Below are positions 1,873-39,040 of a stretch of 39,940 nt of DNA, piece by piece. The notes beneath the pieces were generated by a model. The model saw only the letters and a program-made list of their open reading frames with translations. It was not told where the DNA came from and made no database searches. This DNA is from Nitrospirota bacterium (lineage in GTDB: Bacteria > Nitrospirota > Thermodesulfovibrionia > Thermodesulfovibrionales > JdFR-88), in NCBI GenBank assembly GCA_021789735.1, contig JAJYJB010000013.1:1-39940 (forward strand). The letters run 5' to 3'. A program made the translations under genes and the position numbers. Each line of letters begins with the position of its first letter. Position 1 is the first letter of the stretch.

Positions 1873-1951
1873 GCCGGACGCGGCCATTTTATTTTTAAAG
1901 GCCCCGCCATCCCTCCGCCCCCGCATAAAACTGAATGGCCGTTTTTGAAAT

Positions 1952-2001
1952 GCCGGAGGCTGGCGAAAAAACCTTTTAGGTTTTTTTAACCAGCCCCCGG
2001 C
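1952..2001 (-). terminator. Long two-tier hairpin after the redox operon
   Basis: A 12-bp stem (1952-1963 with 1990-2001, one A/C mismatch) encloses a second A/T-rich stem, AAAAAACC with GGTTTTTT. It lies 46 bases beyond the stop of the NuoG-like gene and upstream of leuD. It probably ends the nine-gene minus-strand operon. The T runs are inside the hairpin rather than after it, so it may be a transcript-end or processing structure rather than a textbook terminator. Confidence 0.55.
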
Positions 2002-2047
2002 ACTCTGATTTTCTTTTCCCGGTCTGCGGTTCCCGGCCTTCTTCAGC

Positions 2048-4495
2048 TCACGCCGCTTCCACTTTCACCGCCACTGTCGGCGCTTCACCGTTTTTCGAGG
2101 GCACGGTGAGCAGGTTCACCTTGGCGTGGGCAAAGTGCACCGGAGCAAATACCATCCCCTGCGGGACCTCCTCGGTGACCCTGGCCTTAAGGTAAATTGC
2201 CTCCCCGCTTCGTCCGCTAATCTTGACGAAACTCTCGTTGTATATGCCGCGGGCACCCGCATCCGCCGGGTTTATCTGGAGGCAGGCATCAGGGGCGGCG
2301 GAGTCCAGGTTGTTGGATATGGTGGTGAGGCTCCCCGAATGCTGCATGAGGTTGCCGGTGGCGAAGATGAACGGATAGCCTTCATCGGCGGGCTCCCTCA
2401 TCTCCTGCTGCACGGGCGAGAGCGCCGGATGGGCCTGCCCCCCATCGTGGGGCAGTTCCAGGAGCGCCCTCGCGGAAAGGCTGGCAAAGCTTTTTGCGTC
2501 CAGGTCGGTATTCATCAACCTGCCGATGTTTCTGAGTATCTTCCAGTCCGGCATGGCGGCCCCCGTTTCCGGCAGGCATTTGTTGATCTTTTGCGGCTTG
2601 CCGGTCATCCCCATGAAGGTCCCGTCCTTTTCCCCCCAGCCGGATGCCGGGAGCACGACATGGGCAAGCTTTGCCGTGGCGGTCATCATTATGTCCTGGA
2701 CGATGAGCAGTTCCAGGCCGCCAAGCGTGTCCATGACCCTGGCCGTGTCAGGGAACGTGACAGCCGGGTTCTCGCCCATTATGTACATCGCCTTCATCCG
2801 TCCCCCGTACATCATTGCCATGGCGTCAAGGCCCGTCCCGGGGCCTTCCAGGGCCAGATGTGTCCCCATGGTGTTTGCGAATTCAGGCGGCAGGCCCAGG
2901 GCCTCAGGCCCCCTGCCAAGCAGGATCGCCAGGTCCATGAGGGCAAGCGCCGTGCCTTCTCCCTTCGTGTTCTCGGAGCTTCCGAAACACGCCATGAGCA
3001 TCGGGTTCTTTGCGGCCGCAAGCGCGCGGGCCGTCTCCCTGACGCCCTGTTCGGACACGCCGGCAACGCCCGCGGCCGCAGAGGGGCTGTATTTCTCAAG
3101 GGCTTTTTTGATCTCCTCAAACCCCTTTACATCTTCGGCCTTTTTGTCGTGCAGGCCTTCTTCGATGAGGGCGCTCATGATGCCGTTCACAAGGGCAACG
3201 CCGGTTGCGGGCCTTATGCGCAGCCACTGGGAGCTCCACCTCGCGAGCTTGGTCTCCCTCGGGTCGGCCACTATGAGGGCCGCCCTGAAATCCCTGCGGG
3301 CCGCAAGGGCCTTGAGGCCGTAGACGGGATGTGTGGAGGTGAGGTCTGACTCCAAGACGAAAATCGCATCGGACCTGAGTGGCGCGTCGAGGTCCATGAA
3401 GAGCCTGTCCATGCCAAATGCCTTTTTGAGAGCCTCCACCTGCTTGGAATAGCCGAGCCTCGTCCTTGAGTCCACATTTGTGGAGCCCACGGCAAGCTCC
3501 ATGAACTTTTTGAGCATGTAGTTGTCTTCCACCGAGCAGCGCTCGGAGCCCAGAGCGCCTATGGCCTGCGGGCCGTGGGCCGCCTTTACCTCGGAAAGCC
3601 TCCCAGCCACAAACTCAAGGGCCTCCTGCCAGGTGGCGGGCTCAAGCCTGCCCTCCTTCCGGACAAGCGGCGTTGTGAGCCTGCGCTCCGATTCTATGAA
3701 GTCGAACCCGAACCTGCCCCTGGGGCAGAGGTCCCCCTTGCTCACTCCGGCCCCGTCCCTGCCCCTTGCGCGCAGGATGTGCCCGTCCCTGATGCTGAGG
3801 ACGGAGGTGCACCCGACGGAGCAGTATGGGCAGATGTTCTCCTGCTCGTCCATCAGCCATACCCTGGAACGGAACTTGTAAGGCTTTACCCCCAGGGCGC
3901 CCACCGGACAGGAATCAACGCACTGGCCGCAGAACTCGCAGTCCAGCGTTTCCTCGAACGCGGGGCTTACCTTTGTCCTGAACCCCCTGCCGATAAGGTT
4001 TATGGCGCCCACGCCCTGGTGCTCCTTGCAGATCCTTACGCACTTGCCGCACAGGATGCACCTGTTTGGGTTCCTTTCTATGAGGGGCGCGGCGGTTGAC
4101 TCCGGCTCGTGCTTCCTCTCGTCGGAAAACCTGCTTGCCACAGGTCCGTACTTGAAGGCCAGGTCCTGCAGGTCGCATTCCCCCGCCTTGTCGCATACGG
4201 GGCAGTCAAGCGGATGATGGATGAGCAGCAGCTCAAGGACGGTCCTTCTTGCCTTCTCCAGCTTGGGCGTCTCCGTATGGATGACCATCCCCGGCTCCGC
4301 CGGCGTGGAGCAGGAGGCAAGAAGCTTTTTTTGCCCCTCCACCTCCACCAGGCAGAGACGGCAGCCGCCGTATGGCGTCAGCCTCCTGTCCCAGCAGAGG
4401 TGCGGTATGTATATCCCGTTTGCAAGGGCGGCCTGCAAGATGGTGGTCTTGGGCTCCGCCTGTATGTTTTTCCCGTTTATGACGAACTCTATCAT
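2048..4495 (-). CDS. NuoG-like iron-sulfur/molybdopterin-fold subunit
   Basis: This 815-residue electron-transfer subunit has the NuoG/formate-dehydrogenase layout. The order is a [2Fe-2S] domain (C34, C45, C48, C62), a His-Cys [4Fe-4S] site (H94, C98, C101, C107), two [4Fe-4S] ferredoxin motifs (C146-C156 and C186-C196), a molybdopterin-type [4Fe-4S] site (C222, C225, C229, C257), a molybdopterin oxidoreductase fold and a C-terminal dinucleotide-binding domain. Where catalytic formate dehydrogenases carry the Cys/Sec ligand, this protein reads DSRTRLGYS with Gly at about residue 348, so it is probably not a Mo/W catalyst. No [FeFe]-hydrogenase H-cluster motif is present. A longer frame runs upstream to 4840, but that part is a shadow of the preceding gene. 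The ATG at 4495 overlaps that gene's stop as ATGA, showing tight coupling to the NuoF-like subunit. Confidence 0.85.
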   Translation of the reverse strand: MIEFVINGKNIQAEPKTTILQAALANGIYIPHLCWDRRLTPYGGCRLCLVEVEGQKKLLASCSTPAEPGMVIHTETPKLEKARRTVLELLLIHHPLDCPVCDKAGECDLQDLAFKYGPVASRFSDERKHEPESTAAPLIERNPNRCILCGKCVRICKEHQGVGAINLIGRGFRTKVSPAFEETLDCEFCGQCVDSCPVGALGVKPYKFRSRVWLMDEQENICPYCSVGCTSVLSIRDGHILRARGRDGAGVSKGDLCPRGRFGFDFIESERRLTTPLVRKEGRLEPATWQEALEFVAGRLSEVKAAHGPQAIGALGSERCSVEDNYMLKKFMELAVGSTNVDSRTRLGYSKQVEALKKAFGMDRLFMDLDAPLRSDAIFVLESDLTSTHPVYGLKALAARRDFRAALIVADPRETKLARWSSQWLRIRPATGVALVNGIMSALIEEGLHDKKAEDVKGFEEIKKALEKYSPSAAAGVAGVSEQGVRETARALAAAKNPMLMACFGSSENTKGEGTALALMDLAILLGRGPEALGLPPEFANTMGTHLALEGPGTGLDAMAMMYGGRMKAMYIMGENPAVTFPDTARVMDTLGGLELLIVQDIMMTATAKLAHVVLPASGWGEKDGTFMGMTGKPQKINKCLPETGAAMPDWKILRNIGRLMNTDLDAKSFASLSARALLELPHDGGQAHPALSPVQQEMREPADEGYPFIFATGNLMQHSGSLTTISNNLDSAAPDACLQINPADAGARGIYNESFVKISGRSGEAIYLKARVTEEVPQGMVFAPVHFAHAKVNLLTVPSKNGEAPTVAVKVEAA

Positions 4496-6339
4496 CTCGT
4501 CTCTACTCCTTTGGCCTTTTCTATCAGTTCCTTGCCCAGTCTGCCGGGGCCCGCCTTGAGCGCGCCGAACTTGCACGCCTCGTAGCAGGAGCGGCATTTT
4601 ACGCACAGGCTCTGGTCTATGACGTGCGGTTTCTTCTTTTCTCCGGACACCGCTTTCTGAGGGCAGACCCGCACGCACGCGCCGCAGCCCTTGCAGGTCT
4701 CCGGGTCTACGTAGAAGGTGACAAGGGGCCTGCAGACGCCGGCCTTGCACCACCCCTCCCGGATATGGGACTCGTATTCGTCCCTGAAGTATTTTATGGT
4801 GGAGAGCACGGGGTTCGGGGCCGTCTGGCCAAGGCCGCACAACGATGTGTTTATGATGTCCTGGGCAAGGTCTGCCAGGAGCTCTATGTCGCCCTCTTTT
4901 CCCCTCCCCTCGGTTATGTCCACAAGCTTGTCATGCATGACCTTTGTCCCAATCCGGCAGGGGGGGCATTTGCCGCAGGACTCGTCCGTGGTGAACTCCA
5001 GGAAGAACTTGGCCACGCTCACCATGCAGTTGTAGTCGTCTATGACCACCATGCCGCCAGAACCCACGATGGCGCCCGTCTGCATGATGTCCTCGTAGGT
5101 GACGGGTGTGTCCAGCAGGGATTCCGGAATGCAGCCGCCCGAAGGGCCGCCAAGCTGCACCGCCTTGTACTTTCTGCCCTTCTTCATCCCGCCGCCGATA
5201 TCGAATATGACCTTTCTGAGCGGTATGCCCATGGGCACTTCAATAAGGCCAATGTTGTTTATGGCCCCCGTGAGCGCGAAGACCTTCGTGCCGGTCGACT
5301 TTTCCGTGCCCAGGCTCTTGAACCATTGGGCGCCTTTCAGTATTATGGACGGTATGTTGGCGTAGGTCTCCACGTTATTGAGGACCGTGGGTTTTTTCCA
5401 CAGGCCCTGCGAGGCGGGAAAAGGCGGCCTTGGTATGGGCATGCCGCGCTTGCCCTCAAGGGAGCGCATGAGCGCAGTCTCCTCGCCGCAGACGAACGCC
5501 CCCGCCCCCTGGTATATCTCTATATCCAGGTTGAAGCCGGTGCCCAGGATGTCCTCGCCCAGAAGCCCGTATGCTCTTGCGTCGTCTATGGCCCTCTGTA
5601 GCCTCTGGACCGCAAGCGGGTATTCGGCCCTTACATAAATATATCCCTTGCTGGCCCCGATGGCCTTTGCCCCTATTATCATGCCCTCAAGGACGACGTG
5701 CGGGTCCGCCTCCATGATGCTCCTGTCCATGAACGCTCCCGGGTCTCCCTCGTCCCCGTTGCACAGGATGTATTTAAGCGGGCCGGGCACCCTGGAGCAG
5801 AGCTCCCACTTGAGGCCCGTGGGAAAGCCGGCGCCCCCTCTGCCCCTGAGACCCGATGCCTTGATCTCCGCTATTATCTCTTCCGGGGTCATGCCGGAGA
5901 GCGCCTTGGCCGCCGCCTGGTAGCCGTCCCTCGCAATGTATTCCTCTATCTTCTCCGGGTCTATGAGCCCCTTGTTCTTAAGGGCCCTGAGCACCTGGAG
6001 GTTGAAAAAAGGTATCTCGCTCATGACGGGCAGGATCTTTTTCTTCTCCGGCTCCTTGTACATGAGCCTCTGGACCGGCCTGCCTTTAAGAAGATGCTCC
6101 TCGACTATCTCCGGGACGTCCGCCGGGGTGAGCTTTTCATAGAAAGTGCCGTCAGGGTAGACGGTCATTATGGGGCCCTCGGCGCAGAAGCCGTTGCAGC
6201 CGGTTATGACTATGCTTATCTCTTTTTCGAGCCCCCGGGCAAGGAGCTCGGCCTCTAGGGCCTGCTTCACCTTGAGCCCGCCGCTCGCGATGCAGCCCGT
6301 CCCTCCGCATATCATCAGGTTAGCCCTGAACTTGTCCAT
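4492..6339 (-). CDS. NuoF/HndC-like NAD(P)H-oxidising flavoprotein subunit
   Basis: This 615-residue subunit has the HndC/HydB domain order. A thioredoxin-like [2Fe-2S] domain comes first (C11, C16, C48, C52). The NuoF core follows, with the glycine-rich GLRGRGGAGFPTG loop, the NGDEGDPGAF flavin segment and the GAFVCGEETAL segment. Next are a [4Fe-4S] site (ESCGKCPPCR plus a later Cys in SLCGLGQTAPNP) and a C-terminal pair of ferredoxin motifs (CKGCGACVRVCP and CVKCRSCYEACKFG). Such subunits bind FMN and NAD(P)H and pass electrons to ferredoxin-like clusters; in hydrogenases of this type they are the site of electron bifurcation. A GGAGG lies 11 bases before the ATG. It is cotranscribed with the HndB-like gene upstream and the NuoG-like gene downstream. 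Confidence 0.9.
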   Translation of the reverse strand: MDKFRANLMICGGTGCIASGGLKVKQALEAELLARGLEKEISIVITGCNGFCAEGPIMTVYPDGTFYEKLTPADVPEIVEEHLLKGRPVQRLMYKEPEKKKILPVMSEIPFFNLQVLRALKNKGLIDPEKIEEYIARDGYQAAAKALSGMTPEEIIAEIKASGLRGRGGAGFPTGLKWELCSRVPGPLKYILCNGDEGDPGAFMDRSIMEADPHVVLEGMIIGAKAIGASKGYIYVRAEYPLAVQRLQRAIDDARAYGLLGEDILGTGFNLDIEIYQGAGAFVCGEETALMRSLEGKRGMPIPRPPFPASQGLWKKPTVLNNVETYANIPSIILKGAQWFKSLGTEKSTGTKVFALTGAINNIGLIEVPMGIPLRKVIFDIGGGMKKGRKYKAVQLGGPSGGCIPESLLDTPVTYEDIMQTGAIVGSGGMVVIDDYNCMVSVAKFFLEFTTDESCGKCPPCRIGTKVMHDKLVDITEGRGKEGDIELLADLAQDIINTSLCGLGQTAPNPVLSTIKYFRDEYESHIREGWCKAGVCRPLVTFYVDPETCKGCGACVRVCPQKAVSGEKKKPHVIDQSLCVKCRSCYEACKFGALKAGPGRLGKELIEKAKGVETR

Positions 6340-6389
6340 CTTTATGGTTCCTCCAACAAGGGAAAAATCGGTTTCTGTCTATATTTTTT

Positions 6390-6773
6390 TCAATAAGAGG
6401 TCTCGTTGCCCATCACCAGGGCGTATTCCAGAACGGCGTTGCCCCCCTGGATGTGCTCGGCGAATATCCTCCTCATCTTTTCCGCGTCCAGCTGGCAGTA
6501 TTTGACAGGCGCCTGGCCCACGAGCTCCACCGTGGCCATGGGCTCCTTGCTGCAAAGCCCCGCGCAGCCAGATGCCGTGACCACGACGTCCTTGACGCCG
6601 GCCTGCGCGAGGGCCTCAACGAGGGCGCTCATTACTTCCCTGGCCCCGGCGGCTATCCCGCATGTGCCCATGTGTATGGTCACTTTCGCCCTGTAGCTGC
6701 CGTGCCTAAGGGTGAAGGTGGCCTCATACTTCTCCTTGATCTTTTTCAGGTCGTCTATGGTCAGCTTTTGCAT
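6390..6773 (-). CDS. HndB-like thioredoxin-fold [2Fe-2S] ferredoxin subunit
   Basis: This small subunit (127 residues) has a thioredoxin-like [2Fe-2S] fold, related to HndB of NADP-reducing hydrogenases. The signature HMGTCGIAAGA (C38) and ASGCAGLCSKEP (C70, C74) is visible, with another Cys at 93. The first cluster Cys of the canonical motif is His here, as is usual in HndB as I remember the family. A strong AGGAGG sits upstream of the ATG. Its place between the NuoE fusion and the NuoF gene matches the gene order of hnd-type operons. It probably acts as an electron carrier or assembly/structural subunit of the complex. Confidence 0.85.
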   Translation of the reverse strand: MQKLTIDDLKKIKEKYEATFTLRHGSYRAKVTIHMGTCGIAAGAREVMSALVEALAQAGVKDVVVTASGCAGLCSKEPMATVELVGQAPVKYCQLDAEKMRRIFAEHIQGGNAVLEYALVMGNETSY

Positions 6774-6849
6774 GAAAAAACGCCTCCTTTTGGGCTGCGG
6801 CCCAGTTTTTTCCTGCCGCTCTCATCATTGTTCGTATTTGGGCAAGCCC

Positions 6850-7710
6850 TCATTGTTCGTATTGGGCCAGTATGTCCAGCGTCTTCACCGGGTTCACGGA
6901 ACCGTGGGTGTCCTTGTCCACCACGACCACCGGGGCAAGACCGCATGCACCAAGGCACCTTACGCTCTCGAGCGAGAATTTCTTGTCGGCCGTGACCTCC
7001 CCGATGTCTATCTGCAGATGCTCCTTGAGCCTCGCCAGTATCTCCTCCGCCCTTTTCACGTAGCACGCGGTGCCCAGGCAGACCCTTACGTTGTGTTTGC
7101 CCTTGGGCTTCATCGTGAAAAAAGAATAGAAGGAGACCACCCCGTGCACTTCGCTTACCGGCACATTCAGCCCGCGGGCTATGTGCCTCTGCACTACGGG
7201 CGGCAGGTAGCCCACAAGCTCCTGCGCTTCCTGGAGCACCGGGATAAGGCTCCCCGGCCTGTCCTTGTGCTTGTCTATTATCGCGGTCAGCTTTTCGGCC
7301 ATGTCCCCGGTGAAATCCTGCGCTTCCGCCTTCGCCGATTTCTTCCTCACCTCCATTGCCTTTGCGGCGGTCTCCACGAGAAGCGACGGAGAAAACGGCT
7401 TGGGCAGGTAGTCTATGATGCCCAGGGTGAGGGCCTCTTTTATGCTCTCCTGCGACGGGTGCCCGGTAATGAGCACGACGCATATCTCCGGGTTTTTGGA
7501 CCTGAGCCTCCGCATGAACTCCATCCCGTCCATGCCGGGCATCTTTATATCGGTTATGACAAGGTCGTAAGGTTTTGCGCCTTCGAGCATCTCGATGGCC
7601 CTGAGGGCCGAAAGCGCGGTGCTCACATCGTACCCCTCCGGCTTCAGTATGCGCTCACAGCTTTTAAGCACCACTTCCTCGTCATCGACAACCAGAATGC
7701 TGCCTTTCAT
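6850..7710 (-). CDS. Response-regulator receiver fused to NuoE/HndA [2Fe-2S] subunit
   Basis: This is a 286-residue two-domain protein. Residues 1-120 form a CheY-like receiver with the acidic pair D9/D10, phosphoacceptor D54 in LVITDIKMPGMDG, T82 and K104. Residues 135-286 form a complete NuoE/HndA domain with [2Fe-2S] ligands C211 and C216 (CLGTAC) and C252 and C256 (CLGAC). The NuoE part is the partner that electrically completes NuoF-type flavoproteins. A normal NuoE begins roughly at residue 135, so the receiver is a true N-terminal addition rather than a frame artefact: one frame covers both domains, and GGAGG precedes the ATG. Phosphorylation could alter assembly or electron flow; this is inference. 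No DNA-binding domain is present. Confidence 0.88.
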   Translation of the reverse strand: MKGSILVVDDEEVVLKSCERILKPEGYDVSTALSALRAIEMLEGAKPYDLVITDIKMPGMDGMEFMRRLRSKNPEICVVLITGHPSQESIKEALTLGIIDYLPKPFSPSLLVETAAKAMEVRKKSAKAEAQDFTGDMAEKLTAIIDKHKDRPGSLIPVLQEAQELVGYLPPVVQRHIARGLNVPVSEVHGVVSFYSFFTMKPKGKHNVRVCLGTACYVKRAEEILARLKEHLQIDIGEVTADKKFSLESVRCLGACGLAPVVVVDKDTHGSVNPVKTLDILAQYEQ

Positions 7711-7746
7711 TTCACTAAAATCCTCCTTGAACAGATAAAGGGGTCA

Positions 7747-8358
7747 TTAAATCCTATTATGACTCTTTGCCGTTATCTTTGCCTGCTGTCTGCCCTGGGC
7801 GATGGCGCGGTTTATGGAGTCCTTTACCAGAAGCAGTATCTCAGGCAGGTTCACGGGCGTATCTCCAAGCTCCTCCACAAGCGCCCCGGAATCAAACCCG
7901 CAATGGAAGCCGCCGCCCGTCTCCCCGCTGTTGATGACGTCATAGAACAGGACGTATCTTATCTCCGGGTGGCCGCACATCAGCGAGAGCATGGTGGCCC
8001 CCAGGTCCCCCAGCGGTTTTCTGTCCACATGGCTGTGCCTGAAGGAGGCCAATAGCGTGGTGCCCCGGCCCGGCTCCGAATCCAGCCGGAACTCCCCGCC
8101 GCATTCCAGGGCCGCCTGCTTGAGCAGCGGTATCCCCAGCCCGAAACGCTTCCCGTTTTTCCGGTCTTCCCATGAAGTAAAGAACGGGTCCTCCGCCCTG
8201 GGCAGGACCTCGCCGTCCATGCCCCGGCCGTTGTCCTCCACGCTGAGCGAATAGATGTCCCTGGCCAGGTCCTCCTCTATCCGTATGACTATCCTTGTGG
8301 CCCCGGCGTTTATCGAGTTTTCAGCGATGTCCAGGATATGCAGCGAAAGGTCTTCCAT
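7747..8358 (-). CDS. GHKL (HATPase) protein of redox operon
   Basis: This 203-residue ATP-binding protein has the GHKL N box (LDIAENSINAGA), G1 box (DNGRGMD), and G2 region (GKRFGLGIPLLKQ). It lacks a dimerisation/phosphoacceptor His domain, so it is not a full histidine kinase. The C-terminal 100 residues are specific to this family and hold HCGFDSG and LPEILLLVKDSI. The frame runs up to 8403, but the ATG at 8358 follows the upstream stop by one base and gives the usual start MEDLSLHILD. Similar single-HATPase proteins sit in bifurcating hydrogenase operons. It may phosphorylate the adjacent receiver domains or Ser/Thr residues; neither is shown by the sequence. Confidence 0.82.
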   Translation of the reverse strand: MEDLSLHILDIAENSINAGATRIVIRIEEDLARDIYSLSVEDNGRGMDGEVLPRAEDPFFTSWEDRKNGKRFGLGIPLLKQAALECGGEFRLDSEPGRGTTLLASFRHSHVDRKPLGDLGATMLSLMCGHPEIRYVLFYDVINSGETGGGFHCGFDSGALVEELGDTPVNLPEILLLVKDSINRAIAQGRQQAKITAKSHNRI

Positions 8359-8359
8359 T

Positions 8360-9103
8360 TCAGTCAAAAACCGCCTTTCTTCCGTCTGCCTCTTTGAGGG
8401 CAAGGGCTATTTCCTTCAGGCTTGCCTCCTCAATCAGAAATCTTGTCCTTTTCCGTCCGATGTCCTCAAGCCTGTGGGCATCGGAGAAGCGGAGCCCCCG
8501 GGACTGCCTTTCTCCCTCTCCGCAGAGCTCGACCGCATCGAAGGCCAGGTCTTCCGGAATGAAGCCAAGCTGGGAAGTGACGCTGAAGGAACCCCGGTCG
8601 GCATGGCTTGCCACCGCCACCCCGCCAAGGCCGTGGATGGCCTCCACCAGGCGCGAAAGCCTTATGCCCGTGGCCCCAGCAAGGAGCCTGCCGCAAAATC
8701 CCATTACCTCGTCCTCCTCGTTGACCAGCACCTGCCCGAACGGCGGGAGGCCTGCCGCCCGGCTGCCGCCTGCGGGTTTTCCCCCGTAAAGACCGTCCAG
8801 CCCGCTGTAGACCTCCTCCTGCATCCTGAAGGCGGCCTCAAGCGTATCAAAAAGGGCAAGCACATGGACCTCTTCCATTGAGGTTATCTCCATTGCGGGC
8901 ACCAGGAAGACGCCTGTCCTCAGGGCGGCCCTGGCTGCGGCCTCCAGGTTTTCGCAGGAGTTGTGGTCCGCGATGGCCACTATGTCCAGCCCCGCCTCCG
9001 CGGCCCTGCGCATGATCCTTACCGGCGTCATGTCCAGCTCCGCGCATGGAGACAGACAGCTGTGTATGTGCAGGTCTGCGGTGAAGAGGCGTTGAGCTGT
9101 CAC
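8360..9103 (-). CDS. PHP-domain metal-dependent phosphoesterase
   Basis: This 247-residue PHP protein has the metal-binding motifs DLHIHS (D10, H12, H14), ADHNS (D46, H47), E72, H80 in EEVHVLALF, and ASHADRGS. PHP proteins hydrolyse phosphoesters with two or three metal ions; the substrate here is unknown. The start is a GTG that overlaps the preceding stop as GTGA. PHP genes recur beside [FeFe]-hydrogenase and NuoEF operons, and this one lies between the DRTGG and HATPase genes, so a role in maturation or in nucleotide/phosphate signalling for the complex is possible but inferred. Confidence 0.85.
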   Translation of the reverse strand: MTAQRLFTADLHIHSCLSPCAELDMTPVRIMRRAAEAGLDIVAIADHNSCENLEAAARAALRTGVFLVPAMEITSMEEVHVLALFDTLEAAFRMQEEVYSGLDGLYGGKPAGGSRAAGLPPFGQVLVNEEDEVMGFCGRLLAGATGIRLSRLVEAIHGLGGVAVASHADRGSFSVTSQLGFIPEDLAFDAVELCGEGERQSRGLRFSDAHRLEDIGRKRTRFLIEEASLKEIALALKEADGRKAVFD

Positions 9104-9444
9104 CTTTCCTCATTTTTCAAAAGAAGATTGTAGAGCATCCCGACCATATCATAGGTCTGAAGGGGGGTGCTCATTACCGGTATGCATTCCGAGGCGGCCT
9201 TCTCCAGGGTCTCCTCCTCGATCTGCTTGCCGCCCGTCACTATTATCCCGGAGAGGCCCTTTATGGCGGCAACCGCCGCCACGTTCGGATGTGTCTGCCT
9301 CGTTATCCAGATGTTGCCTTCCTTGCCGTTTGCAAGGACGTCGGAGAGCATGTCGCTTGCATAGCAGCCGTTTACGGCCGCCTCGACGCAGCCGTTGTTT
9401 TTAAGGTCCAGGCCAAGCCTGGTTATGAGTTCCTGTACCGTCAT
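9100..9444 (-). CDS. DRTGG-domain protein
   Basis: This 114-residue protein resembles the stand-alone DRTGG domain, which is otherwise found next to CBS domains or in phosphotransacetylase-like proteins. Recognisable parts are the N-terminal VQELITRLGLDL, the central AASDVLANG-like segment, WITRQTHPNVAAVA, GIIVTGGKQI and the C-terminal PLQTYDMVGMLYNLL. It lacks catalytic motifs and is likely a ligand- or protein-binding module. AGGCAGG precedes the ATG. It sits 20 bases after the RsbW-like gene and overlaps the PHP gene. Confidence 0.75.
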   Translation of the reverse strand: MTVQELITRLGLDLKNNGCVEAAVNGCYASDMLSDVLANGKEGNIWITRQTHPNVAAVAAIKGLSGIIVTGGKQIEEETLEKAASECIPVMSTPLQTYDMVGMLYNLLLKNEER

Positions 9445-9464
9445 TTATTCCTGCCTTGCATTTT

Positions 9465-9926
9465 TCAAGATGGTGATGCCAGATTTATTGTGATCTCGAG
9501 CGTCGTGCCTTCGCCGGGCACAGAATCTATCACAAGAGCGTCGGCGTTCTTTTTTATGTTGGGCAGGCCCATGCCGCTGCCCCAGCCGAATTCCCTGGCC
9601 CAGTCGGGCGCGGTCGTGTAGCCTTCCTTCATGGCAAGCCCGACGTCCGCAATGCCCGGCCCCATGTCGGTGACCGTTATCGTAAGGACATCGCCCTCTA
9701 TCAGGTAATGCAGGCTCCCCGCCACGGCATGGATTATGACGTTTATCTCCGCCTCGAAGGCGCAGATGGCCGCCCGCCTGATTACCTGGGCCGGCACGCC
9801 GAGGGCCGCAAGCTCCGAGCGCAGGCTCTTTGAGCCGGCCCCGGCATCTGAAAAATCCCCGCCGTTCAGCGGGAAGTAGATGTCCTGCCCGCCGCCAGGG
9901 CCTTCTTTTTTGCCTCCGTGCGCCAT
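9465..9926 (-). CDS. RsbW-like anti-sigma/serine kinase ATPase
   Basis: This 153-residue GHKL ATPase has an N box (EAEINVIIHA), a G1 box (TDMGPGI) and a G2 box (GSGMGLPNIKKNAD), in the arrangement of RsbW/SpoIIAB-type serine kinases and anti-sigma factors. The frame is open back to 9995, but the ATG at 9926 lies 5 bases after the preceding stop and removes residues that are the shadow of the upstream gene. Its partner, an anti-sigma antagonist or a sigma factor, is not in the window. In this operon it may act on the receiver or NuoE-fusion proteins instead. Confidence 0.8.
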   Translation of the reverse strand: MAHGGKKEGPGGGQDIYFPLNGGDFSDAGAGSKSLRSELAALGVPAQVIRRAAICAFEAEINVIIHAVAGSLHYLIEGDVLTITVTDMGPGIADVGLAMKEGYTTAPDWAREFGWGSGMGLPNIKKNADALVIDSVPGEGTTLEITINLASPS

Positions 9927-9931
9927 GGCCG

Positions 9932-10705
9932 TTAAACGCCCGCGCCGGTGGTTTTTACACGAAGAAGCCATACAAGCCAGTTTTCCTGAAGACATTCCTG
10001 CACAAAGCCGGGCAGCGTCTCATTCACCCTCTCGTTCCTGCCCGTCACAATGCCGCTCATGGGGGACTTGAGCTCTATTATCTTTCCTTCGCCAAGCAGC
10101 ACCCTTGCGAAGGTCTCTCCGGAGATGACCTCGGGCTGGTCTATAAGGTCTATATAAAGGAGGTGTCCGCCAAGGTACCACTGCCTCACATCAAAGCCTA
10201 TCTCCCAGCCGCCCTGGACAGGCCTCGCCCATATCCCGTCCTTGTAATAGATGGCCCGCTCGTCAAGCTCGGAGGCCACCGTCACATACTGCCTGAACTG
10301 GTCTATGAAGGCCTTGCGCAGTATCCAGCCCCTTTTATCGAAAACCTTCGCGGCGATGTTTTTCATGAACTCGGGTGTGAAGGGTTTTTCAAGGAACTCA
10401 AAGGCGCCGAGCCTGACGGCCTCCTTGGCGTCTTCGAGAGTGGGGTATCCGGTTATCATCACTACGTCCGTCCCCGGCTGGACGACCCGGGCCTCCCCCA
10501 GAACCTCGATCCCGTGCACATCGGGCAGCCTGATGTCCGATATGAGGAGGTCCACCTCTTCGGAGCCCAGCCTCTTTATGGCCTCGGCCCCGCTGGTGAC
10601 CGTGTTTACCGTGTAGCCTTCCGCCCCCAGTATCCTTTTGCAGCTAAGTCCCACTACGGGGTCGTCATCCACAACCAGTATCTTTTTCTTTTTGACAGCT
10701 GACAT
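9932..10705 (-). CDS. Receiver domain fused to glycine-cleavage-H-like domain
   Basis: This 257-residue protein has a CheY-like receiver at residues 7-125, with D13/D14, phosphoacceptor D57 (LLISDIRLPD), T85 and K107. The C-terminal part (about 150-250) reads like the H protein of the glycine cleavage system: RQWYLGGHLLYIDL, then ELKSPMSGIVTGRNE, then LPGFVQECLQENWLVWL. In true H proteins a Lys seven residues before the Ser of SPxSG carries lipoate. Here Lys208 is six before it, so lipoylation needs a one-residue shift and is uncertain. A GTG at 10711 is also in frame, but the AGGAGG at 10719-10714 is spaced 8 bases from the ATG at 10705. It is the first gene of the operon and has no DNA-binding domain. 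Confidence 0.83.
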   Translation of the reverse strand: MSAVKKKKILVVDDDPVVGLSCKRILGAEGYTVNTVTSGAEAIKRLGSEEVDLLISDIRLPDVHGIEVLGEARVVQPGTDVVMITGYPTLEDAKEAVRLGAFEFLEKPFTPEFMKNIAAKVFDKRGWILRKAFIDQFRQYVTVASELDERAIYYKDGIWARPVQGGWEIGFDVRQWYLGGHLLYIDLIDQPEVISGETFARVLLGEGKIIELKSPMSGIVTGRNERVNETLPGFVQECLQENWLVWLLRVKTTGAGV

Positions 10706-10740
10706 CGACACGACCTCCTTTTATTAAAACATAAATCATA

Positions 10741-10757
10741 AAGCAATATGTGTGCCC
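10741..10757 (-). promoter_or_regulatory. Sigma-54-type (-24/-12) promoter
   Basis: On the minus strand GGGCACACATATTGCTT matches the sigma-54 pattern TGGCACR-N4-TTGCW with GG and GC exactly 10 bases apart. A start about 12 bases further on leaves a leader of about 25 bases before the ATG at 10705. It would drive the nine-gene redox operon and implies an activator of the NtrC type, which is not encoded in this window. Confidence 0.62.
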
Positions 10758-34991: not shown

Positions 34992-35312
34992 ATGAGACAG
35001 GCATGAGGCTTTTTTCAGCAAATGCCAGAGAGGTAATTTAGACGGACAGACGGAAACTTCAGACTTTCATCCTCTACGGAACTCCCCGCCCTGGATGTGC
35101 CGGCCTTAACCAGAAGACCCTAGATGTGCCTTCCGGCTTTGTTCCATCCGATGGAAACGGGCCCGGCGAAACGTTTTTTTGCTTTTTCCCCCGGCCGGCC
35201 CGGCATTCTTGCGGCGTCCGGGCGGGAAGCCTTTCCTTTTTCCATGGGGCGCCGGACGGTCCCTCCGCGGAGGATGAGGTCGCCTGTCAGCAAGGAGGTC
35301 TTTGGCAAAAAA

Positions 35313-35834
35313 ATGCAAAAGGAAAAAACCGGGAAACAGAAAAAACTTGACGGCGCGGATGTAAAGAAGCTGGAGGACATCTGCGCGCGGCACCGGAAGG
35401 AAAAAGGCGCCGTTATTTCCATACTCCAGGAGATACAGGACTTGTTCGGCTACATACCTGAGGACTGCATCAATTTTGTCGCAGACAGGCTTGAGATGCC
35501 TGAGGGCCATTTTTATGGTGTGGCCACTTTCTACTCCCAGTTCCATTTCGAGCCGAGGGGGAAAAACATAATAACCGTCTGTTGCGGGACGGCCTGCCAC
35601 GTAAAGGGCTCTGGGAACCTCATAAGCCTGCTGGACAGGGAGCTGGGAATCCCGGAGGGGCAGGAGACCTCGGCGGACCTGAATTTCACTCTGGAGAAGG
35701 TCAACTGCGTGGGGGCATGCTCCATTGCTCCGGTCGTTATCATAAACAAAACTGTCCATGGAAAGACGAATGCTGACAGGTTGACAAAAGAGGTAAAAAA
35801 GCTGAGAGGCGGCGAAGATGGGAAACAAGGCTGA
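35313..35834 (+). CDS. NuoE/HndA-like [2Fe-2S] subunit
   Basis: This 173-residue protein is an ordinary NuoE with a thioredoxin-like [2Fe-2S] domain; its ligands are C90 and C95 (CCGTAC) and C132 and C136 (CVGAC). It has no receiver domain, unlike the paralogue at 6.8-7.7 kb. The frame is open from 35124 and an ATG at 35274 exists, but AGGAGG lies 14 bases before the ATG at 35313 and sits directly against none of the others at good spacing. The stop lies 17 bases inside the NuoF gene. Confidence 0.85.
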   Translation: MQKEKTGKQKKLDGADVKKLEDICARHRKEKGAVISILQEIQDLFGYIPEDCINFVADRLEMPEGHFYGVATFYSQFHFEPRGKNIITVCCGTACHVKGSGNLISLLDRELGIPEGQETSADLNFTLEKVNCVGACSIAPVVIINKTVHGKTNADRLTKEVKKLRGGEDGKQG

Positions 35835-37653
35835 GAAAATAGAAATAAAGGTTTGCATGGGGCCTGTCGGCATCACCGCGGGCGGCCCGGCGGTGCTGGA
35901 CGCCTTCGGTGAGGAGCTCGGGCGCGCCGGCGTTGCGGCCAGGCTCGAAAAGAACTGCACAAGGCACAAGGTGGGCTGCAAGGGCTTTTGTTCCAGGGAC
36001 GTCCTTGTGGACGTGGTAATAGACGGGCGCAGGACGACTTACCAGTACGTAAAACCCCATATGGTGGCCAGGATCGTGCAGGAGCATATAATCGGCGGCG
36101 TGCCCGTTGCCGGCTGGGAGGTCGACGACGAGTACCGCGCATTCCACGGCAGGCAGGTGAAGGTGGTCCTGTCCGATTGCGGCGAGATCGACCCTGAAGA
36201 TATAGAAGCCTATATGGAGGTGGGCGGGTATGGGGCTGCCAGACAGGCTCTGGCCGGGATGGCTCCGGAAGAGGTGATAGAGGCGGTAAAGAGGTCGGGG
36301 CTCAGGGGCAGAGGCGGGGCCGGTTTTCCCACCGGCCTGAAATGGGAAGCGGCAAGAAACCAGCCCCCCGGCCTGAAATACCTCATCTGCAACGCCGATG
36401 AAGGGGACCCGGGGGCCTTCATGGACCGCGCCGTCCTCGAGGGCAACCCGCATTCCGTCCTGGAGGGCATGATAGTGGCCGCGTATGCCGTCGGCTCGGA
36501 GGAAGGGTATGTGTACATAAGGGCGGAATACCCGCTTGCCGTCGAGCGTCTGAAGAAGGCCATCGGGCAGGCCCGCGAAAAGGGCTTTCTCGGGAGAGAC
36601 ATCATGGGGACGGGCCTGAATTTCGACATCAAGGTGAAGCTGGGTGCCGGCGCGTTCGTGTGCGGAGAGGAGACCGCCCTGATAGCGAGCATAGAGGGAC
36701 AGCGGGGCATGCCGAGGGCCAAGCCGCCGTTTCCCGTCGTAAGCGGCCTCTGGGGGAGGCCGACAGTGATAAACAACGTGGAGACCCTTGCAAACATCCC
36801 TTACATAATAAGGCGCGGGGCGGAATGGTTTTCCGCCATGGGCACCGAAAGGTCGAAAGGGACGAAAGTCTTCGCGCTGACCGGGAAGATCAGGAACACG
36901 GGCCTTATAGAGGTCCCCATGGGGATGAGCATGAGGGACATAATCTTTTCAATAGGGGGAGGGATAGGGGGCGGCAAGAAGTTCAAGGCCGTGCAGGTCG
37001 GGGGGCCTTCCGGAGGCTGCATCCCTGAGAGCCACCTTGACGTCAGGGTCTGTTACGAAAACCTGATGAAGCTGGGGGCCATAATGGGCTCGGGCGGCAT
37101 GATCGTCCTTGATGAGGACGTCTGTATGGTGGAGATGGCGAAATACTTCCTCAACTTCACCCAGTCGGAGTCCTGCGGGAAGTGCGTGCCATGCCGTGTC
37201 GGGACTAAAAGGCTCTACGAGATACTGGACCGCATCACGAAAGGAGAAGGCAAAGAGGGCGACCTTGCTCTCCTGGAGGAGTTTTCGAAGGACGTGAAAC
37301 TGGCCTCCCTTTGCGGGCTCGGCCAGACCGCGCCCAACCCTGTGTTAAGCGTGCTCCAGTATTTCCGGCCCGAATTCGAGGCCCACATACTGGAGAAAAA
37401 ATGCCCCGCAAAGGCCTGCAAGCCGCTCATCGCCTACCGCATAAGCAAGGAGCGGTGCAAGGGGTGCGGGGCATGTGCAAGGGTCTGCCCTGTTTCAGCC
37501 ATCAGCGGCCGGCTGAAGGAGGCCCATTCCATAAGCCAGGGCATATGCGCCAAATGCGGCGGTTGCTTCGACGTTTGCAAATTCGGGGCCGTCCGGAAGG
37601 CCAATAAGCCCGGATCGTTAAAAAAATCAAAAGAGAAAGGGCCCGTTTCCTGA
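35818..37653 (+). CDS. NuoF/HndC-like flavoprotein subunit, second copy
   Basis: A 611-residue paralogue of the protein at 4.5-6.3 kb. The NuoF core (GLRGRGGAGFPTG, NADEGDPGAF, GAFVCGEETAL), the ESCGKCVPCR cluster and the C-terminal double ferredoxin (CKGCGACARVCP and CAKCGGCFDVCKFG) are all intact. The N-terminal [2Fe-2S] domain has C13, C54 and C58, but Gly18 occupies the position of the second Cys of the CxxxxC pair, so this cluster may be altered or absent. There is no NuoG or hydrogenase gene after it: the next element is an IS. Its partner must be elsewhere or lost. Confidence 0.88.
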   Translation: MGNKAEKIEIKVCMGPVGITAGGPAVLDAFGEELGRAGVAARLEKNCTRHKVGCKGFCSRDVLVDVVIDGRRTTYQYVKPHMVARIVQEHIIGGVPVAGWEVDDEYRAFHGRQVKVVLSDCGEIDPEDIEAYMEVGGYGAARQALAGMAPEEVIEAVKRSGLRGRGGAGFPTGLKWEAARNQPPGLKYLICNADEGDPGAFMDRAVLEGNPHSVLEGMIVAAYAVGSEEGYVYIRAEYPLAVERLKKAIGQAREKGFLGRDIMGTGLNFDIKVKLGAGAFVCGEETALIASIEGQRGMPRAKPPFPVVSGLWGRPTVINNVETLANIPYIIRRGAEWFSAMGTERSKGTKVFALTGKIRNTGLIEVPMGMSMRDIIFSIGGGIGGGKKFKAVQVGGPSGGCIPESHLDVRVCYENLMKLGAIMGSGGMIVLDEDVCMVEMAKYFLNFTQSESCGKCVPCRVGTKRLYEILDRITKGEGKEGDLALLEEFSKDVKLASLCGLGQTAPNPVLSVLQYFRPEFEAHILEKKCPAKACKPLIAYRISKERCKGCGACARVCPVSAISGRLKEAHSISQGICAKCGGCFDVCKFGAVRKANKPGSLKKSKEKGPVS

Positions 37654-37803: not shown

Positions 37804-37825
37804 GGCTCTACAGGGTTTCCTGTGG
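37804..37825 (+). repeat. IS left inverted repeat
   Basis: The outer end begins GGCTCTACAGGG; the transposase stop lies inside this repeat. Three mismatches to the right end, at positions 7, 16 and 17. Confidence 0.88.
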
Positions 37826-39040
37826 GTAAAGGTCGAGCTTCCCGCAGAAAAACAGGATGGCAACCCTGTAGTTTTCAAAGTTCCTGAACCCGCGAGCTGC
37901 TGACTTCACCTGTTGAATCCTGCTGTTTATTCCTTCGACTGCCGCATTCGTAATATGATGTTTCAGGTACGTGAGAATATTATCCAAATGCCGCTTCAGC
38001 ATCTTCGCCACTTTCGTTATCGGCTTCAGTCTTGAATGCGTTGCCCACAAGTACCATTTCCGGAAATAATTCCTTGCGGCCTTCTTGTAAGTGAACCCCC
38101 ACAGGTCAGCAAACATCTCCTTGATCGCCCACGCCCTCCCAACCTTCAGGTCTTGATCCCTCAGTTCTTTGAACATGCTTTTCTGATCGGGGCTCCAGTT
38201 CTCCGGTGTCGTCAGCCATAAATACTTTGTCCCCTTCAGCACATCTGAGCCGTCCTTTAACAGGGCCTTATTCTCGGCCTTCCGTACCGCATCCACGGCT
38301 TCTCCGAGATATTTGGCGATATGAAACTTATCGTGCACAATATCGGCCTCCGGCAACAGAGACTGCACAGCGTTTATATAGGGTTCCCACATGTCCATAG
38401 CCACTGCCACAATCTCCTGGCGCTGCTCATCAGGAATGCTCTCAAGCAACCCCTTTAGAGAATCCTCTTTCCGGTCCCGCGCCACATCCAGCACCCGTCT
38501 CTCGTCCAGATCGCAGAGAAGAGTGGCGTACCGGTGCCCTTTCAGAAAGCTCTTTTCATCCACCCCGATCCGCTTCAGGGCGGCGGTCTCTCTTCTCTGA
38601 AGCCCTCTACGGACGGCCTTCTCCTGGATCAGATGTATCTCATCCCAACTGAGCTTTAAAAGCTCCTTTGCCTTCGTCTGGTTCAGGCAGCCCAGTAGCA
38701 CATCGATTGACAACCTTTCAAACAAGGCCGTAAACCTCGAATTGCCTTCAGCCCACGGCACATTGATGCTCTTTACCCCGTGCTCGGCGCATTCGATGCG
38801 CGGAATCCGGCAATGGAGGATTGTTTGAAACTGCATGGTGTCCAGATGCCGCCATTGGCGCTCCTCACGGTGATCATAGATTCTGCACAGCTCCCCGCAT
38901 TCCGGGCATGGCGCCTTCTGATCCAAGGGCCAGGTGATCCATAGGTCTACCCTTAACCCCGAAAAGTCCACCTTGATCTCCGACACAGCCCACGGCTCCT
39001 TCAATCCCAACAACTGCCGGTAAAGCTCTTTATCCTGCAT
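37808..39040 (-). CDS. ISL3-family transposase
   Basis: A full 410-residue transposase. The N-terminal zinc-finger region has CPECGELC and later C and H residues. The likely DDE catalytic residues are D161 in RIGVDEKSF, D216 in VAVAMDMWEPY and E369 in NAAVEGINSRIQ. GGAGG lies 8 bases before the ATG. No frame break is seen. Confidence 0.92.
   Translation of the reverse strand: MQDKELYRQLLGLKEPWAVSEIKVDFSGLRVDLWITWPLDQKAPCPECGELCRIYDHREERQWRHLDTMQFQTILHCRIPRIECAEHGVKSINVPWAEGNSRFTALFERLSIDVLLGCLNQTKAKELLKLSWDEIHLIQEKAVRRGLQRRETAALKRIGVDEKSFLKGHRYATLLCDLDERRVLDVARDRKEDSLKGLLESIPDEQRQEIVAVAMDMWEPYINAVQSLLPEADIVHDKFHIAKYLGEAVDAVRKAENKALLKDGSDVLKGTKYLWLTTPENWSPDQKSMFKELRDQDLKVGRAWAIKEMFADLWGFTYKKAARNYFRKWYLWATHSRLKPITKVAKMLKRHLDNILTYLKHHITNAAVEGINSRIQQVKSAARGFRNFENYRVAILFFCGKLDLYPQETL

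Follow-up and report, generated by a model that had tools for sequence, protein, structure and literature searches.

For enzymes built on a BfuABC core, the consulted sections of Schut et al. (2022; PMC9304861) describe both Nuo-Bfu, a predicted 14-subunit bifurcating complex I, and Type 1 Fdh-Bfu as predictions. For the beta subunits, the consulted part of Losey et al. (2020; PMC7311640) names four traits that separate bifurcating from NADH-only forms: extra iron-sulfur (Fe-S) sites, Ala or Glu together with Met near the NADH site, Phe near flavin mononucleotide (FMN), and a GGPSG motif. In Thermodesulfovibrio N1, both complex I clusters are without NuoEFG according to the accessible part of the report (PMC5165239). 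Here, we describe nine probably cotranscribed genes of a Nitrospirota bacterium (assembly GCA_021789735.1, contig JAJYJB010000013.1; the 39,940 nucleotides analysed are called the window), which by sequence may encode a phospho-regulated BfuABC-type input module that relays electrons, most likely to the membrane arm of complex I. We give this reading about even weight.

Bifurcating-type core and receiver fusion

The NuoF/HydB-type subunit (BfuB; 4492..6339, minus strand) comprises an N-terminal [2Fe-2S] site, the FMN/NADH domain, SLBB, NADH_4Fe-4S and two C-terminal [4Fe-4S] sites, and matches HydB of an iron hydrogenase (7q4v_B, 837 bits) as well as subunit B of a NiFe hydrogenase (7t2r_B, 832 bits) over almost the full length. 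All four traits listed in the part of Losey et al. (2020; PMC7311640) used here are found in it (A/M, F, GGPSG and the extra Fe-S sites), which argues for electron bifurcation by this subunit. Most relatives agree: among 51 NuoF rows from group A, as we call the window-type loci (54 examined), 46 have A/M and GGPSG, 49 have F (Y replaces it in L026 and L047), 43 match the N-terminal [2Fe-2S] pattern and all 51 match both C-terminal [4Fe-4S] patterns. The complex I NuoFs of group A genomes (about 420 amino acids, four rows) do not show the bifurcating set, with Y in four of four, GGPSG in none and T/K in three, one being unread. The NADH-loop motif and GGPSG are missing in five group A NuoFs (L030, L036, L041, L046, L071). 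Without the NADH-binding DEGDPGAFMDR loop, these five are possibly an NADH-independent version; L071 sits on a long branch and its placement is unsure.

As for the domain composition, the BfuB set (51K, SLBB, NADH_4Fe-4S, 4Fe-4S) is present with PF01512, PF10589 and PF00037, the SLBB entry PF10531 (E 3.6e-4) lying below the cut-off. The 2Fe-2S domain of BfuC (PF01257) and the 2Fe-2S/4Fe-4S domains of BfuA (PF13510, PF00111, PF00037 and others) are present too. We take the InterPro names of the published definition to correspond to these Pfam entries. By the domain definition in the consulted part of Schut et al. (2022; PMC9304861), the core of the operon is a BfuABC enzyme, with the reservation on SLBB just given.

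The NuoE/HndA-type [2Fe-2S] subunit (BfuC; 6850..7710, minus strand) carries a receiver domain (PF00072, 1.1e-29) in addition to its NuoE domain (PF01257, 3.8e-50). Since the acidic pair (D9, D10), Asp54, Thr82 and Lys104 are conserved (at least 90% over 41 rows, as are four Cys), this receiver looks able to accept phosphate. Of the group A loci, 45 have a recognisable NuoE, and in 41 of these it is fused to the receiver. The fusion occurs in none of the 20 loci with a NuoE in group B, the next matches at 36-40% identity (26 loci), where no gene of the DRTGG/GHKL/PHP cassette described below was recognised either. At phylum level, 148 genomes of Nitrospirota (the phylum of G006) gave 38 matches to the NuoE fusion in 36 genomes, 27 of the 38 spanning the receiver. 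In the phylum of L078, which we take to be Desulfobacterota, 79 of 297 genomes have a match at E <= 1e-45 when the best eight candidates per genome are scored, and none starts before residue 69; the sole match starting there (G229) has an internal stop. Among 198 genomes of the phylum of L073 there were two matches, neither with a receiver. The fusion appeared in one of the three phyla sampled.

Besides the operon, the window holds, at 35124-37653 and 37808-39040, a second pair of NuoE and bifurcating-type NuoF and then an ISL3-type transposase on the opposite strand. The second NuoF groups with Fdh-type beta subunits in the NuoF tree, and no gene for a formate dehydrogenase alpha subunit was seen among the open reading frames (ORFs) listed for the window. 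Frames of about 780-807 amino acids with a NuoF domain recur in many of 17 group A genomes.

End subunit

The last gene of the operon (2048..4495, minus strand) encodes a NuoG/FdhA-like end subunit (BfuA) with 19 Fe-S-type Cys and a molybdopterin-type domain. Both the 19 Cys and a Gly at the position of the molybdenum/tungsten (Mo/W) ligand are conserved in 121/121 sequences, that is the window protein and the 120 homologues listed of 7506 found. In an alignment of 52 group A ORFs (50 loci, L034 counted twice, and the window; the partial NuoGs of L046, L053, L055 and L071 were excluded), Gly again stands in all 52 rows where formate dehydrogenases have selenocysteine (Sec) or Cys. The His beside the ligand is changed to Tyr or Phe in 51 of 52, the catalytic Arg333 is kept in none, being mostly Ala, Pro or Ser, and Arg460 and Arg581 are lost.

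Group B carries the motif of formate dehydrogenases; at the ligand, 24 of the 26 loci have an in-frame TGA (Sec), L063 has Cys and L054 has neither, the last being probably a complex I NuoG because NuoH comes next. Going by record titles, seven assemblies hold both groups (BMS3Bbin05, HyVt-545, S139_46, Ru_enrich_NS, SJ299, nDJH14bin7 and nDJH5bin4), and their group B member has Sec in each case (L065, L081, L068, L082, L074, L064, L067). Because the Gly is invariant and Sec-type formate dehydrogenase paralogs coexist with it, the window enzyme belongs to a separate, long-lived paralog group and, judged by its motif, is no formate dehydrogenase. The complex I profile for NuoG (TIGR01973) scores 450.3 bits and does not reach its curated cut-off of 470.05. 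The Pfam scan found no H-cluster domain (Fe_hyd_lg_C) in the window end subunit, while the same profile detects the HydA of L213; we therefore reject a hydrogenase identity, and by motif the protein is neither a hydrogenase nor a formate dehydrogenase. The AlphaFold model is mediocre (mean predicted local distance difference test score, pLDDT, 65.5; below 50 for residues 82-276).

These results agree in part with an earlier note on this DNA, made from the letters alone, which had proposed a bifurcating-type enzyme under signalling control whose last gene is without H-cluster motifs. At sequence level, the bifurcating type is supported by the four traits of NuoF, and the signalling part by the phosphorylation residues kept in the receivers. 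A conserved Mo ligand in close relatives, which the note had named as the finding that would speak for a normal formate dehydrogenase, was sought and not found in the 121 and 52 aligned sequences.

Relation to complex I

The relation to complex I was approached via phylogeny and gene neighbourhoods, with trees from quick IQ-TREE runs for which branch support is given by the Shimodaira-Hasegawa-like approximate likelihood ratio test (SH-aLRT) only. The NuoF tree places group A with the complex I modules that carry the cassette (85), within a clade of cassette-bearing NuoFs except O_L212 (99), and this clade stands apart from Fdh-type NuoFs and the second NuoF of the window. B_L060, B_L077 and O_L212 fall separate from the other groups in this tree, in which long branches were flagged. 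The neighbourhoods point the same way in six relatives, in which a nuo operon adjoins or encloses the operon or the cassette. The group A set is embedded between nuoA-D and nuoE-F-G-H-I in L027/L224, and in L039, L044 and L048 a sensor kinase gene is divergent from nuoA. In G002 (L223), nuoA-F and a kinase-led cassette diverge, and the cassette is connected to L045 across unassigned ORFs, one of them on the opposite strand. In G001 (L179), nuoABCDE and the cassette diverge likewise, and the group A NuoEFG of this genome has another location (L031). The complex I clusters of these genomes differ: in the L044 genome (L225), nuoD and nuoH are separated by nothing but a cNMP-binding protein, with EFG absent from this place, and in the L039 genome (L226) the run nuoABCDEFGHI is complete. 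F and G are also missing from the nuo clusters of G001 (which has E), G015, G008 and G010 (L179-L182). Together, these arrangements suggest a regulated second electron entry for complex I, a connection that goes beyond the earlier note.

Several observations weigh against this connection. The NuoF tree does not resolve the complex I modules as one group (support 21), and the NuoG tree adds no support because group A falls outside both complex I modules and formate dehydrogenases (85-88). Complex I genes are visible at just 4 of the 54 group A loci (38 of the 54 with more than 1 kb upstream), and the two further cases, G002 and G001, come from genomes opened on purpose. By eye, no complex I gene adjoins the operon among the ORFs listed for the window, and L010 and L052 have a kinase-led cassette without an adjacent complex I gene. 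Moreover, a separate NuoD-E-F cluster is already present in 15 of 17 genomes, where the module would be redundant; adjacency to nuo genes, besides, is not docking. The idea that the operon generally stands in for the NADH module where a complex I has no EFG was rejected on account of the same 15 genomes.

Proposed mechanism and alternatives

In the reading to which we give even weight, the soluble BfuABC-type module of NuoE, NuoF, NuoG and HndB would exchange electrons with NAD(H) and ferredoxin via the bifurcating-type NuoF. The NuoG-like subunit, its formate site lost, would pass electrons through its Fe-S clusters to a partner whose genes lie elsewhere. The likeliest partner is the membrane arm of complex I, to which the module may offer a second, ferredoxin-using input beside the NADH-only NuoEFG. 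The receiver on NuoE could serve as the switch: its phosphorylation, by a sensor kinase such as the one found at the head of the cassette in several relatives, and perhaps tuned by the GHKL and PHP proteins, would set activity or docking. A more specific version, which we regard as tentative and rather doubtful, is a complex I with two interchangeable inputs, the NADH-only NuoEFG and a ferredoxin-plus-NADH bifurcating module that phosphorylation of the NuoE receiver would activate or silence, or else attach to or release from the membrane arm.

Among the alternatives, the module could be a Bfu hub to which a different soluble partner docks, with its genes elsewhere, by analogy with the H-cluster-less HydA of the Acetomicrobium NiFe-Bfu, for which the consulted part of Schut et al. 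(2022; PMC9304861) gives such a role. The end subunit aligns to that protein over residues 8-653 (7t2r_A, 235 bits) and the NuoF match to 7t2r_B fits as well. We nevertheless hold this to be unlikely, if worth keeping in mind, since the ORFs that recur beside three or more group A loci, several of them named by eye, include no recognisable hydrogenase or other redox partner. Those recurrent neighbours that could be named belong to signalling and housekeeping or encode FdhD; in some genomes complex I genes join them.

A further possibility is that the end subunit of the Bfu enzyme still binds an Mo/W pterin without a protein ligand and converts an unknown third substrate. Arsenite oxidase has a Mo cofactor without a protein ligand. 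The pterin-type fold of the end subunit is in line with such a role, as are nine family-specific, near-invariant positions, which may or may not line the pocket, and the 74 of 178 positions invariant in formate dehydrogenases that are retained in at least 80% of group A. However, eight complex I NuoGs from such genomes retain nearly as many (68), and the changed pocket positions are weakly, not clearly, more conserved than the background (permutation p about 0.10). FdhD, found 91-1813 bases downstream in 6 of the 54 group A loci, could mean a working Mo/W cofactor and also speaks against a pure relay; it could also stem from the seleno-formate dehydrogenase carried by seven of these assemblies. 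With the Sec/Cys ligand, the His and all three Arg gone as well, we judge pterin-based catalysis improbable. An ordinary NAD-linked formate dehydrogenase or a decaying copy, for which only the closest PDB matches of the end subunit (NAD-dependent formate dehydrogenases) would speak, is hardly conceivable and was rejected, as the Mo/W ligand is lost in each aligned sequence, the genes are full-length and conserved, and a separate Sec-type paralog exists in seven of the same assemblies.

Accessory cassette

The accessory genes were followed beyond group A by a search with the second GHKL protein, which located the cassette in 62 of the 297 genomes from the phylum of L078; 20 places were opened. 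Complex I genes follow a whole or partial cassette in L199, L204, L205, L206 and L211, and probably in L198, which is cut by the contig end. Sec-type formate dehydrogenases with an in-frame TGA in the motif follow in L197, L207 and L208, and an [FeFe]-hydrogenase in L213 (Fe_hyd_lg_C 4.5e-103). In L196, L202 and L212 the cassette adjoins other NuoG-like proteins; L195, L200 and L214 are counted in none of these classes. Similar arrangements were found in other Nitrospirota: G066 and G049 (L175-L178) have the order nuoC, nuoD, cassette, NuoE, HndB, NuoF, NuoG, NuoH, NuoI, and G083 and G058 (L167, L169, L170) are consistent with it as far as read, N_L169 being classed as a complex I module via a NuoI-like ORF. 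In total, the order NuoE-HndB-NuoF-NuoG-NuoH-NuoI follows a whole or partial cassette in L176, L177, L199, L204, L205, L206 and L211.

The cassette is therefore not hydrogenase-specific. The notion of the earlier note that the end subunit stands in place of a hydrogenase is not supported, since the cassette also accompanies complex I, Sec-type formate dehydrogenases and others, and the nearest kin in the NuoF tree are complex I modules; the end gene, whose variation the note had proposed to check, does vary, hydrogenase being only one of its kinds. What remains of that interpretation is the bifurcating-type NuoF, the receivers and an end subunit that by its motifs fits neither a hydrogenase nor a formate dehydrogenase. 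The survey suggests that the cassette is a frequent companion of BfuABC-type modules with differing end genes, which gives a common context to genes of unknown role.

Some features of these loci lie outside the redox theme or vary it. In four loci from the phylum of L078 (L201, L203, L209, L210), the cassette is followed by a fused B12-binding/MeaB/methylmalonyl-CoA-mutase-like protein and not by a redox module. NuoFs with a C-terminal GltD-like Fer4_20/Pyr_redox_2 domain occur in L196, L197 and L213 (by Pfam), L202 and L212 (by eye) and L208 (by length), and the NuoG-like proteins of L196 and L202 end, by eye, in a NuoE-like domain. A C-terminal FAD domain is described for some hydrogenase BfuB in the accessible part of an earlier study (PMC11406978).

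Operon structure and flanking genes

The nine ORFs run in the same direction from 10705 to 2048 on the minus strand, with gaps of 5, 20, -4, 1, 36, 76, 50 and -4 bases, which points to cotranscription. Gene identities come from Pfam and NCBIfam profile matches, those of the PHP and HndB proteins being weak; they confirm the set given in the earlier note, namely two GHKL proteins, two receiver fusions, PHP, DRTGG, HndB, NuoF and a NuoG-like protein. The first gene (9932..10705), whose ATG at 10705 is preceded by AAGGAGG, encodes a receiver (PF00072, 2.5e-26) with a GcvH-like domain (GCV_H 0.0058, under the cut-off). It is followed by GHKL1, an anti-sigma-F/RsbW-like ATPase (9465..9926; PF13581 2.1e-7, PF02518 1.5e-6; TIGR01925 1.1e-12, below the cut-off of that profile), with ATG 9926 picked as the start of a frame open to 9995. 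Next come a DRTGG-domain protein (9100..9444; PF07085 6.7e-8), a putative phosphoesterase of the PHP type (8360..9103; PF02811 2.5e-5, just below the cut-off, and PF13263 1.4e-4) and the ATPase GHKL2 (7747..8358; PF02518 4.5e-16). Between receiver-NuoE and NuoF lies the HndB-like [2Fe-2S] protein (6390..6773; NF041612 5.8e-7, below the cut-off, and PF01257 0.0034), and the end gene starts at ATG 4495, not at GTG 4840.

Content and order of the nine genes are shared by six other loci (L003, L004, L005, L007, L037, L049), and L027 has the set with an additional kinase and receiver protein. Because of this recurrence and the fused receiver-NuoE in 41 of 45 loci, the arrangement is not due to chance. 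The closest locus, L003 from a Nitrospirae metagenome-assembled genome (MAG), shows 93% identity in NuoG, and the named close relatives are Nitrospirota MAGs. A possible terminator, an inverted repeat at about 1951..2002 (minus strand) read by eye 3' of the last stop, is not among the hits of our pattern scan, whose promoter and terminator counts are near those of shuffled sequences. The operon is flanked by leuB/leuD-like genes on one side and by a YkgJ-like gene and argG-, dprA- and topA-like genes on the other, all named by eye from translations.

Regarding the other signalling parts, D56, T84 and K106 of the receiver-GcvH protein are invariant in 23 alignment rows (numbered from 10702), and Gly apparently takes the aligned place of the lipoyl lysine (by eye). 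The 120 homologues listed of 646 matches cover 93-100%, PF01597 is precomputed for many of them, and their named sources are all Nitrospirota or its groups except for one "Alphaproteobacteria", so the protein looks lineage-bound. Its AlphaFold model has a mean pLDDT of 79.8, and the 50 Foldseek matches listed are all receiver proteins. In the PHP protein, H12, H14, H47, H80, H167, D208 and H210 are at least 90% conserved in 19 rows. A membrane histidine kinase leads the cassette in L010, L027, L039, L044, L048, L052, G002 and G001, with HAMP, HisKA and HATPase domains (scanned in L179 only).

Comparison with known systems

If our reading is correct, a receiver within a bifurcating core, conserved in a lineage and genetically tied to complex I, would make direct two-component control of electron bifurcation testable. 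In the titles and abstracts listed by our searches of the open-access literature, we found no description of the cassette, the receiver-NuoE fusion, the receiver-GcvH companion or the Gly branch of the end subunit.

Like Nuo-Bfu, the window has a BfuABC core related to complex I-linked modules, with genes in or beside nuo operons in six relatives. By eye, the core is not inside a nuo cluster among the ORFs listed for the window; it is so in L027/L224 and adjacent in others. In contrast to Nuo-Bfu, the operon is separate, has a receiver fused to NuoE and a receiver-GcvH protein, and 15 of 17 relatives also have a NuoD-E-F cluster. With Type 1 Fdh-Bfu, represented here by the group B loci, it shares NuoE, NuoF and a NuoG that bears a pterin domain and comparable clusters, whereas group A has lost the Sec/Cys ligand, the His and the Arg, and group B is without recognised cassette or receiver fusion. 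The NuoE-HndB-NuoF core resembles the bifurcating [FeFe]-hydrogenase HydABC, and the cassette also precedes HydA in L213, but the window end subunit has no H-cluster domain. Finally, in the NiFe-Bfu of Acetomicrobium mobile (7t2r), a BfuA without active site is the electron hub according to the consulted part of Schut et al. (2022; PMC9304861), although the window operon is without NiFe subunits. Relative to these Bfu types, what appears to be new is the receiver on NuoE, its receiver-GcvH companion and a separate, conserved branch of end subunits with Gly.

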